56,021 nucleotides of DNA from a virus, in the IMG/VR virus record IMGVR_UViG_3300041583_000090, positions 1 to 56,021 of that record; one strand, 5' to 3'. Position 1 is the first letter of the stretch, and each line of letters starts with the position of its first letter. The translations under genes were made by a program, and so were the position numbers. Positions 49,224 to 55,240 of this stretch are shown in pieces. The notes beneath the pieces are model-generated. The model saw nothing but the letters and a program-made list of their open reading frames with translations. It had not been told where the DNA came from and did no database searches.

Positions 49224-49248
49224 GCGGGTTCGATTCCTGTTTGAGGCT
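49224..49248 (+). pseudogene. tRNA 3'-half fragment
   Basis: T-arm GCGGG-TTCGATT-CCTGT is followed by a 7-nt acceptor-like strand TTGAGGC and T, but there is no matching 5' half, D-arm or anticodon arm upstream. It may be a remnant of a tRNA or a tRNA-derived attachment core. Confidence 0.5.
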
Positions 49249-49251
49249 CTA

Positions 49252-49260
49252 TGCTATAAT
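49252..49260 (+). promoter_or_regulatory. Extended -10 promoter for endolysin gene
   Basis: TGC-TATAAT lies 22 nt before the ATG at 49283, with AAGGAGG between. It would start lysis-module transcription separately from the tRNAs. Confidence 0.6.
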
Positions 49261-49282
49261 AGAGGTAAGGAGGATTACAAAC

Positions 49283-50050
49283 ATGTCAAACTTATTCGCA
49301 TTACCTGTGCAGGGAGAGTACAGAGTCACCTCGCCATTCGGTTGGAGGATAGACCCCGTAACAAAAAAAGCTACTAGGCACCATAACGGTGACGATATCA
49401 TTACTGGTAGGAAAAATGAAAAAGTCTATGCCGTTATGAATGGCAAAGTTCTTAAATCTAGGAAGTCTACCGCCAAAGGCGGTGGTTTCGGTAACTACAT
49501 TGTTATTAGACATTTCATCAGTGGCAAATACTACACATCACTTTACGCTCACCTACAGGATGGTTCCTCGAAGGTACGTCAGGGTCAGATGGTTAAGGCT
49601 GGAGACCAAGTCGGCGTAATGGGTGACACAGGCTACGTAACAGGACTTCATTTACATTTTGAAATATGGAAGGGAAGAACGCACGGCTGGTCACAAGATG
49701 GCAGGGGTTTTCTAGAGCCATTAAAGTTTATTCTTTCTATGATAGCTCTTAATGAAGTAAAAGTTAGCACTCCAAAGGCTACCCCAAAGCCACAGAAACC
49801 TGCCGAGCCTGAGAGTAGGAAAGTCCCAAGGACAAAGAGAGTGGCTGTAAAGGTGTCCAAGCCTTTGCCTGTCGTAGCTCCTGTCAAAAAGCCAACGGTA
49901 TCTAAGCCAAAGACCCATACAGTAAAATCTGGAGATACACTAGGAGCAATAGCTAGAACATACAAGACAACTGTGGCAATACTTGCAAAGCTTAATAAAA
50001 TTGACAACGTTAATCTAATTAATGTTGGACAAGTAATTAGGCTACCTTAG
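49283..50050 (+). CDS. Endolysin: M23 peptidase with LysM domain
   Basis: 255 residues from ATG 49283 (AAGGAGG 9 nt upstream); an upstream in-frame start lies in the promoter and is rejected. The N-terminal M23/LytM zinc peptidase has 'TSPFGWRIDP', the ligand pair in 'RHHNGDDI' and the 'HLHFEIW' motif with H-x-H. A Lys/Pro-rich linker (about 155-205) leads to a C-terminal LysM ('HTVKSGDTLGAIARTYKTTV', about 208-254) that binds peptidoglycan. It would cut cell-wall cross-bridges at lysis. There is no signal peptide, and membrane protein genes follow, so export via a holin is expected. Confidence 0.88.
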   Translation: MSNLFALPVQGEYRVTSPFGWRIDPVTKKATRHHNGDDIITGRKNEKVYAVMNGKVLKSRKSTAKGGGFGNYIVIRHFISGKYYTSLYAHLQDGSSKVRQGQMVKAGDQVGVMGDTGYVTGLHLHFEIWKGRTHGWSQDGRGFLEPLKFILSMIALNEVKVSTPKATPKPQKPAEPESRKVPRTKRVAVKVSKPLPVVAPVKKPTVSKPKTHTVKSGDTLGAIARTYKTTVAILAKLNKIDNVNLINVGQVIRLP

Positions 50051-53420: not shown

Positions 53421-53777
53421 ATGAATAAAGCTATTATAAAATCATATCTAGAAAACTTGCTGGCTGTTGTCTTGGCTTTGATTGCCACAACCATCGCCGG
53501 TGCCGGAGTGTCTTCACCATTTGAACTCGCGTTGAGTGATTGGCTAGGAGTTGCAAACGGCTTGTGGGCAGCAGCAATCCCAACCTTGCTTCGCTATTTC
53601 AATGGCAAGGACCCAGCGTTCGGTAGAGTCTTCAAGACCGTATCCGATGAGGTAACAAAGAAATTAGAAGAAGCAGCAGAGGAAGCTAAGAAGGCAGCAA
53701 CAAAAGCTGTGGCTAAGACAGCTCCTAAAAAAGCAGTTGCTAAGGTAACCCCGAAGCCACCTGTTACTAAAAAGTAA
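53421..53777 (+). CDS. Membrane protein with Lys/Ala-rich tail (holin-like)
   Basis: 118 residues. An N-terminal hydrophobic segment ('LAVVLALIATTIAGAGVSSP', about 14-33) and a second shorter one ('LGVANGLWAAAIPTLLRYF', about 42-60) are followed by 'NGKDPAFGRV', a stretch seen in actinophage holin-like proteins. The last 45 residues are Lys/Ala/Pro-rich. AGGAG lies upstream of the ATG. A strong terminator follows, making it a single-gene unit. It may be a second holin-type protein. Confidence 0.6.
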   Translation: MNKAIIKSYLENLLAVVLALIATTIAGAGVSSPFELALSDWLGVANGLWAAAIPTLLRYFNGKDPAFGRVFKTVSDEVTKKLEEAAEEAKKAATKAVAKTAPKKAVAKVTPKPPVTKK

Positions 53778-53793
53778 TTAAATAAATATAGAT

Positions 53794-53822
53794 AAGCGGA
53801 TCACTCTTGTGGTCCGCTTTCT
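53794..53822 (+). terminator. Strong intrinsic terminator
   Basis: An 11-bp stem (53794-53804 with 53809-53819, one T-G pair), TCTT loop and a T-rich 3' side. Confidence 0.88.
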
Positions 53823-53826
53823 CTTA

Positions 53827-53835
53827 TGCTATAAT
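53827..53835 (+). promoter_or_regulatory. Extended -10 promoter for structured RNA
   Basis: TGC-TATAAT right after the terminator. Seven nt downstream is 53842, exactly the first base of the long helix described next. Confidence 0.65.
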
Positions 53836-53841
53836 AGTAGT

Positions 53842-53928
53842 GTCCCCATACAGGGCAAGGATTTTGTTTTCTTAGGATGACTAGTTACCATTTTTCTGGG
53901 CAACTCCTTCAGGTTACTGTGTGGGGAC
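53842..53928 (+). ncRNA. Structured RNA / leader with 12-bp closing helix
   Basis: No gene covers this stretch. The ends pair over 12 bp with one G-T: GTCCCCATACAG (53842-53853) with CTGTGTGGGGAC (53917-53928). A further 5-bp helix AAGGA/TCCTT (53857-53861, 53905-53909) lies inside, with asymmetric internal loops containing AGGTTA. A -10 element puts transcription start at the helix's first base. This is consistent with a riboswitch-like leader for the small exported protein downstream or with a free small RNA. It does not match a riboswitch class I can name. Confidence 0.5.
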
Positions 53929-53966
53929 TTAATCTTGCTCAAATACAAACAATAAAGGAATCATTA

Positions 53967-54243
53967 ATGTTAAAGAAAACCCCCCAAATCTAATCGCGCA
54001 ATGCTTTTGTTATCGTCTGTATCTGTGGCATTGTCCCTTGCATTGCTTTCGATTGTGCCCAGTCAAGCCTCTACTCTACCTAGAATCAATCTAGGTGGTG
54101 CTGGCGGCGTCCCTGCAATCCCTTTATCAAGCCTTGAATTGATAGGAGACTTTTTGGTATCAGCTACTTCAGAATTCACAAGAACTGTCAGGGGGTTGGC
54201 TAACTGCACCTCTGATAAACTTAGAGATTCCTATGTGATATAA
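53967..54243 (+). pseudogene. Small exported protein with frameshift in C6 tract
   Basis: ATG 53967 has AAAGG 8 nt upstream and reads Met-Leu-Lys-Lys-Thr-Pro, then meets a stop at 53991 because of a run of six C (53980-53985). If one base is skipped, the frame joins the one that reads from 54001: a textbook Sec signal peptide with basic start, hydrophobic core ('MLLLSSVSVALSLALLSIV') and 'PSQA' cleavage site, then a mature part of about 60 residues ('STLPRINLGGAGGVPAIPLS'). The intact gene would be about 91 residues. It may be disrupted, phase variable, read by +1 frameshifting at CCC-C, or a sequencing error. Role unknown. Confidence 0.55.
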
Positions 54244-54946: not shown

Positions 54947-55222
54947 TTACCCCCCATACTCACGTTGATAAGTTCTCATCTTGTGACAGTTGGCACACAC
55001 CACATCACACTTAGAAACTTCCTTCCAAGCAGCAGCCTCACCATAATTACGAAGAACCCGGTATACGACGTCTATCTTCTGATGCTCTGGCTTGTGATCA
55101 AACTCTAAGATGTAGTGGGGGAATATGTTCCTGCAATCAAAACACCCGTGCTTCTCTTTGTAGAGATGAAGTTCTTCAAGCACTAGGGACATCGCCTTAC
55201 GATGTTTTGCAGTCTTTACCAT
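54947..55222 (-). CDS. HNH endonuclease-like protein
   Basis: 91 residues from ATG 55222, chosen over GTG 55240 because a TACAAT/TATACT element sits just upstream and homologous proteins tend to begin near this Met. The zinc pairs are 'CFDC' and 'CANC', and the catalytic core is 'LEFDHKPEHQKIDVV' with the Asp-His of HNH. Short free-standing HNH proteins often act as homing-type or packaging-associated nucleases. It is on the minus strand, opposite most genes, which fits a mobile-type insertion, but no flanking repeats were found. Confidence 0.8.
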   Translation of the reverse strand: MVKTAKHRKAMSLVLEELHLYKEKHGCFDCRNIFPHYILEFDHKPEHQKIDVVYRVLRNYGEAAAWKEVSKCDVVCANCHKMRTYQREYGG

Positions 55223-55230
55223 ATAGTATA

Positions 55231-55239
55231 ATTGTACCA
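55231..55239 (-). promoter_or_regulatory. Promoter candidate for HNH gene with dyad
   Basis: On the minus strand TGG-TACAAT precedes the ATG at 55222 by 8 nt, and TATACT (55225-55230) overlaps the gap. GTACCA and TGGTAC form an inverted repeat at 55234-55257 that covers the element and may be an operator. Confidence 0.45.
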
Positions 55240-55240
55240 C

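Follow-up and report, generated by a model that had tools for sequence, protein, structure and literature searches.

The DNA analysed here is a viral stretch of 56,021 nucleotides (nt), comprising positions 1 to 56,021 of the IMG/VR record IMGVR_UViG_3300041583_000090 (referred to simply as the window). Near its end it encodes a predicted 87-nt RNA, whose conserved core is complementary to helix 69 (H69) of the 23S ribosomal RNA (rRNA) of the presumed host. From sequence comparison, we regard it as very likely that this pairing is under selection, in view of the agreement with host type, the presence of the core in several unrelated scaffolds, a wobble test and antisense matches in non-coding DNA of cultured phages. 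The RNA is probably a trans-acting phage antisense RNA, one that would invade the exposed H69 of free or nascent 50S subunits and hinder subunit joining. The features of the locus are listed below, with 23S rRNA positions in Escherichia coli numbering.

53794-53819, + strand: intrinsic terminator of the preceding gene, a hairpin with an 11-pair stem and a T-rich tail
53827-53835, + strand: extended -10 element TGC-TATAAT (TATAAT at 53830-53835), read from the sequence, six bases before G53842
53842-53928, + strand: 87-nt RNA, from the fold and the homologue alignment; covariance-model match at 53838-53932
53842-53853, + strand: 5' strand of the 12-base-pair (bp) closing helix, GUCCCCAUACAG; compensatory changes at 11 of 12 pairs
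53854-53861, + strand: GGCAAGGA, complement of 23S UCCUUGUC at 1940-1947 (H70/H71, one G-U pair); window subfamily only
53871-53879, + strand: CUUAGGAUG, complement of 23S CAUCCUAAG at 1921-1929 (3' side of H69 and flank)
53880-53881, + strand: AC linker facing U1917-C1920; homologues differ in its length and sequence
53882-53889, + strand: UAGUUACC, proposed seed, complement of GGUAACUA at 1909-1916 (loop and 5' side of H69); more exposed than the rest of the core
53917-53928, + strand: 3' strand of the closing helix, CUGUGUGGGGAC, pairing with 53842-53853; the T-rich stretch after it is weak in the window

A family of small RNAs with a covarying closing helix

The family search was started from relatives of the neighbouring Hva1_TUDOR-type protein, which gave 80 viral loci, several of them with the RNA. 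A core-motif scan and a second, stricter scan led to 96 distinct RNAs in which the core lay within a closing helix, including a handful from scaffolds (classes B and F) other than that of the window (class A). Members of one class are related and hence non-independent.

An earlier note on this DNA, made from the sequence alone, had described a strong terminator, an extended -10 element and an 87-nt RNA closed by a 12-bp helix, and all three were found as described. It had also proposed covariation as a check. When this was carried out on 49 class A sequences, the closing helix paired in 91.8% of the cells, and 11 of its 12 pairs were changed on both sides. There were 89 compensatory cells compared to 30.5 in shuffles, and the covariation was 0.503 compared to 0.265. 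These values were reached by 0 or 1 of 500 shuffles, and they also exceeded the sliding controls, so that the check did not refute the RNA. A covariance model matched the window, which was part of the alignment, with an E-value of 6e-14, and a homologue outside the alignment (L014) with an E-value of 5e-18. The same model located the RNA in 22 of the 80 Hva1_TUDOR neighbour loci, L014 among them. The fold of the window RNA (87 nt) had an energy of -31.7 kcal/mol (z = -2.9; 3 of 200 shuffles were equally good), and it is far outweighed by the comparative support. The RNA family is real. An inner 5-bp helix, also described in the note, was present in the predicted fold of the window but is not conserved: RNAalifold found no inner helix in the 49 sequences, for which the closing helix is the sole conserved structure.

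No open reading frame (ORF) of at least 60 codons ran across the RNA in 82 of 91 members. A -10-like box was present within 22 nt upstream in 78 of 90 homologues, and at least five T per 8-nt window were found no more than 14 nt past the helix in 65 of 90 members. Neighbouring genes differed among homologues, and some downstream genes were on the minus strand. The commonest neighbours were an Hsp20 gene upstream (an Hsp20-like gene preceded the class A RNA in 42 loci) and an Hva1_TUDOR or HNH-like gene downstream. Since the neighbours vary, a -10 box and a T-rich tail are frequent and overlapping ORFs are few, the RNA looks like a small RNA gene and not a leader, which bears out one of the two suggestions of the earlier note. 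Together with the upstream terminator, the -10 box and the T-rich tail are consistent with an own transcription unit.

Nor did the RNA match a named class in Rfam, in line with the earlier note. Neither the window RNA nor related RNAs matched Rfam 15 at the gathering threshold, the weak matches lying far below it, and no usable match appeared at permissive thresholds either. BLAST searches with the window RNA and individual members against cultured phages gave no full-length homologue; the homologues of the window's class are uncultured viral contigs.

Complementarity of the core to helix 69

The conserved core has the form CUUAGGAUG-(2-4 nt)-UAGUUACC, in which G is tolerated in place of A; UAGUUACC was invariant across the 49 sequences. 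An unbiased scan of 84,980 species genomes with the pattern GGATGN{1,4}TAGTTACCA hit mainly 23S rRNA genes of actinobacteria, in antisense orientation (78 of the loci were retrieved), and CCTTAGGATGGTTATAGTTACCACC is the reverse complement of actinobacterial H69 plus its flanks. The core is thus antisense to actinobacterial H69 at 1909-1929. UAGUUACC can pair with G1909-A1916 and CUUAGGAUG with C1921-G1929, while U1917-C1920 lie opposite the linker, which in class A is almost always shorter than this facing stretch. GGCAAGGA, which the window subfamily carries 5' of the core, can pair with U1940-C1947, giving about 25 pairs across 39 nt of 23S rRNA; in the homologue L022, the corresponding GACAAGGA is an exact 8-nt antisense match. 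Most class A members do not have the 1940-1947 segment.

When 9 + 8-nt cores were permuted, none of 20,000 matched 23S rRNA. For the interior of the window RNA, H69 was the best of 203 windows of 23S rRNA by duplex energy (-48.0 compared to -37.0 elsewhere). In the predicted folds of 90 members, the mean unpaired probability of UAGUUACC was 0.71.

Complementary segments past H69 (1926-1980) were found in 16 of 47 RNAs compared to 4.4 in shuffles (200 shuffles, the largest value being 15). A second antisense stretch, GGCCATTCGTGC-like and facing 1961-1974, seemed striking on inspection in the 3' half of the class A RNAs. It was the best site in just two of 25 cluster representatives, so that we do not claim it for the whole of class A. 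In class B, the best 5' match began at 1961-1962 in five of seven RNAs, so that the 1961-1974 segment is better supported there than in class A.

Agreement with host type and wobble pairing

H69 reads GGUGGUAACUAUAACCAUCC in actinobacteria and GGCCGUAACUAUAACGGUCC in E. coli, the latter form being the common one. The window terminase is nearest to those of Streptomyces phages (53-54% identity), and the core of the window RNA is of the actinobacterial form. Phages of other bacteria bear a GGACC...UACGG core. Class C RNAs (CUUAGGACCGUUUAGUUACGG; L323, L324, L327, L332), with GGACC-type cores, lie near a jumbo-phage DNA polymerase that is nearest to those of Sinorhizobium and Agrobacterium phages, enterobacterial phages also being among the closest. 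In the region beside the polymerase of three cultured jumbo phages there was no obvious gap for an equivalent RNA, as judged from annotation only. Vibrio phages have CCUUGGGACCGUUAUAGUUAUGGC. The scaffolds, i.e., A (window), B, C, E (L325, L326, L334) and F (L131, L364), have little in common except the core. Class B RNAs lie in tRNA clusters and contain CCCATATGCCAGC... A further three loci (L474, L482, L486) carry GCTACCTTGGGACCGTTATAGTTACGGC, 27 of whose 28 positions are identical to antisense 23S rRNA, followed by a hairpin, a T-run and a tRNA gene. Another group, class D (L321, L331, L336), was dropped, its core being inside an ORF of 61-63 codons and probably coding.

In a wobble test, we used the fact that replacement by G of the A facing U1926 preserves a G-U pair. 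The A-to-G form TTGGGACCGTTATAGTTA occurred in at least three unrelated RNAs, at 13 viral loci, none of which lay within an ORF of 60 codons; one of these families is that with GCTACCTTGGGACCGTTATAGTTACGGC. The non-pairing forms with C or T (TTYGGACCGTTATAGTTA) occurred in two loci together, which shared one sequence. Since the class A collection had admitted only A or G before GGATG, its 63/27 split between A and G is no evidence by itself; the wobble scan is. The agreement with wobble pairing and with host type, like the family, the helix and the complementarity, is apparent from the sequences compared.

Matches in cultured phages

Cultured phages were searched with a 77-nt antisense of E. 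coli H69-H71, rRNA contaminants being present among the matches. Antisense matches in non-coding DNA were obtained for Vibrio phages, Jilinvirus (where ACTTACCCGACA was kept in four genomes), Guernseyvirinae (Hafnia TS33, Pantoea AH01) and Staphylococcus phages. The Staphylococcus records are unannotated, and in one related Escherichia record the site is occupied by a hypothetical protein. The reversed query gave two groups of matches, both within coding genes. One by one the matches are weak (E 0.2 to 8); what still argues for them is their non-coding position, the terminators after several of them and the conserved core.

Some of these regions may be described individually. In Vibrio phage PWH3a-P1 (L459:1201-1310; near 80,887-81,010 of HQ634156), L466 and L467, an unannotated, non-coding RNA-like region contains CCTTGGGACCGTTATAGTTATGGC, which can pair over 24 nt with 23S 1907-1930, followed on its 3' side by TCGCTACC (1929-1936); in R16F, the CCTTGGGACCGTTATAGTTATGGC region adjoins tRNA genes. 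Jilinvirus and Klebsiella phage KA2-1 (L460, L465, L468, L469) and Guernseyvirinae (L462, L463) have GGAACTTACCCGACAA or a near form of it, antisense to 23S H70/H71. These regions were intergenic in the records examined and had terminator hairpins after them. Several also hold AAGGcAGGTGATC or AGGAGGTGAT, which appear to resemble the complement of the 16S rRNA 3' end. In Staphylococcus sextaecviruses and in a record under the name of Arcanobacterium phage TPWB06 (L461, L464, L470), GAACTATCCGACGAGGGATTTCGCTACCTT, a near match to antisense 23S rRNA over 31 columns, lies just past an exonuclease gene. The Arcanobacterium record is near-identical here to the Staphylococcus phages, so its host label is possibly doubtful.

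Genes around the RNA in the window

The ribosome site that the earlier note had placed after the RNA is present at 53955. It leads to an 8-codon ORF (ATG at 53967) and not to the signal-peptide gene, which the note had named next to it, since that ORF, at 54001, is in another frame. A run of six C (53980-53985) lies inside this short ORF with its good ribosome site. In the near-identical contig L001 the equivalent run has five C, and the ORF joins the start of the signal-peptide frame; the difference may be true variation or a sequencing indel.

Upstream, an endolysin-like protein with M23 peptidase and LysM domains is encoded at 49241-50050. A short protein that is holin-like by eye, with no Pfam match, is encoded at 53421-53777, just 5' of the RNA. 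The RNA may possibly lie at the end of a lysis region. On the minus strand, 54947-55240 encodes a small protein that is HNH-like by eye, also with no Pfam match; its homologues are found near the RNA in 37 loci.

Discussion

H69 forms the intersubunit bridge B2a. Since H69-H71 are buried in the 70S interface, the likely target of the RNA would be a free, recycled or nascent 50S subunit. H69 is released and exposed once the subunits separate (PMC4289901), mutations in its loop strongly inhibit translation or 70S formation (PMC1190176), and an H69-directed peptide nucleic acid (PNA) inhibits the growth of E. coli (PMC7038079). Because H69 forms B2a, and both loop mutations and the PNA are harmful, interference with free or nascent 50S is the most likely outcome; given pairing, we consider an effect of this kind on 50S or 70S function probable.

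In the mechanism that we propose, the closing helix would keep the ends of the RNA together and protected and display the antisense core to the 23S rRNA of the host; if followed by a T-run, it could also terminate transcription. As UAGUUACC is exposed and the H69 loop becomes exposed on subunit separation, a loop-loop contact followed by invasion would be a natural route. UAGUUACC would make contact with the loop and 5' side of H69 (1909-1916) and the H69 stem would then be invaded, CUUAGGAUG pairing with the 3' side (1921-1929); the window subfamily would also pair through GGCAAGGA with 1940-1947. H69 would thereby be opened and bridge B2a blocked, leading to less subunit joining or 50S maturation during infection. 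We infer transcription of the RNA, its binding in cells and its effect on subunit joining.

Several results weigh against this proposal. The T-run after the window's own closing helix is weak, and CUUAGGAUG is partly paired within the RNA (mean unpaired probability 0.26 in predicted folds). The duplex energy lacks a full edge over shuffles, the best of which reached -49.2 compared to -48.0 for the window RNA (shuffle mean -40.0), at random sites. Counted by family, complementary segments past H69 occurred in 6 of 11 compared to 3.5 expected, so that complementarity beyond H69 is only moderately supported. GGACC loci (TTAGGACC..TAGTTACGG) numbered 18 compared to 12 for the reversed control; as the two are not clearly apart, only the conserved non-coding families count as evidence. 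The RNA was not found in 396 Actinomycetota genomes, so that a cultured carrier of the window's class is lacking. The phage itself requires translation, so a block of the ribosome must be timed or limited. Finally, the support is drawn from sequence.

The strongest rival, which we nevertheless consider unlikely, is that the RNA pairs with H69-H71 to protect or mark the ribosome, as a shield of the interface against host ribonuclease toxins that infection induces, or to ride on 50S subunits with 23S rRNA as a mere dock. The evidence for pairing is the same for both readings. Phages depend on functional ribosomes, tRNA clusters harbour the class B and G1 RNAs, and the pairing of the window subfamily extends to 1940-1947, within the helix 70 region that MazF-mt6 cuts. 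Cleavage of 23S rRNA at the A site is the subject of a reference within PMC13189344, judging by its title. However, the 1940-1947 segment is missing from most class A members, the ribosome should already be disturbed by pairing through H69, and according to a 2026 paper, H69 of bacteria is not known to be cleaved by any nuclease (PMC13189344). Alternatively, the RNA might guide modification of a 23S nucleotide exposed by the U1917-C1920 bulge, or act as a splint on which a ligase rejoins a broken H69. Host enzymes modify H69, and the class A linker, nearly always shorter than the stretch it faces, would suit such a bulge. But the Vibrio and G families pair right through the loop with no bulge, and neither RNA_ligase (PF09414) nor RtcB (PF01139) gave a match in the window's record, which may be a fragment; these two points render a guide or splint improbable.

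Invariant loop sequences frequently bind proteins, and class A shares a neighbourhood (the Hsp20-like gene upstream in 42 loci), as might be expected if the core of a structured RNA bound a protein and its match to 23S rRNA were coincidental. This would leave unexplained the independent scaffolds, the agreement with host type, the wobble test and the matches in cultured phages, and we find it very improbable. We give least credence to a cis-acting leader or riboswitch of the downstream signal-peptide gene, the other suggestion of the earlier note. The window does have a ribosome site within 30 nt past the RNA. However, the downstream gene is not conserved (it may even be on the opposite strand) and is broken or tiny in the window, T-rich sequence usually follows the closing helix, and no conserved inner structure exists from which a multi-helix aptamer could be built. 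Complementarity to the 23S rRNA of the host accounts for the conserved interior, and the leader is thus unsupported.

The RNA has conserved complementarity to a target encoded elsewhere (23S H69), by which trans-acting antisense RNAs are recognized. The known trans-acting antisense small RNAs (sRNAs) of bacteria and phages (c4, OOP, phage anti-sRNAs) are likewise short and intergenic, with an own promoter (a predicted one in the window RNA) and a pairing region displayed by a hairpin. Those RNAs target mRNA or sRNA, whereas the window RNA is complementary to rRNA at the subunit interface. Guide RNAs of the box C/D and H/ACA types are also small and antisense to rRNA, in archaea and eukaryotes also to its H69 region; pairing of the window type spans 8-28 nt and is differently arranged. 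No C/D or H/ACA boxes were evident in alignment A1, in which no systematic search was made for them, and we know of no such guide system in bacteria. The stable RNAs C and D of phage T4 are small phage RNAs in a tRNA cluster, like class B and G1 here. They do not share the core and their best 23S duplex site is outside H69-H71, for which reason rnaC and rnaD were dropped as known examples. For rnaD (L445:1054-1172), the best gapped complement in E. coli 23S rRNA was at 1931-1953, within the target region, though weak, its ordinary score being matched by 13 of 60 shuffles. The synthetic H69 PNA (Kulik et al. 2017, as cited in PMC7038079) is antisense to the same hairpin and inhibits E. coli growth; unlike the phage RNA it is man-made and short, with no scaffold. 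Ribosome-directed phage proteins (PMC10914614) are also aimed at host ribosomes, but are not RNA.

In the literature within reach, which mostly excluded preprints and subscription papers so that a recent report may have been missed, we came across no account of an antisense RNA to 23S rRNA from a phage or bacterium, and the word rRNA is absent from a 2025 review on small RNAs of phages (PMC12197685). Antisense RNA as such is familiar; one against rRNA that recurs in unrelated phages is, to our knowledge, apparently new. We are somewhat inclined to think that unrelated tailed phages of at least three host groups (actinobacteria, gammaproteobacteria and staphylococci) have independently evolved RNAs pairing with H69-H71, as a general RNA-based takeover route by which the ribosome is attacked or commandeered. 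If so, this would be a new viral means of controlling translation, through RNA pairing with rRNA at the subunit interface, and it would provide a function for some of the non-coding RNAs in phage genomes and tRNA clusters. The H69 type of the core would give a clue to which host group an uncultured phage infects, and H69 would be singled out as a natural antisense target.
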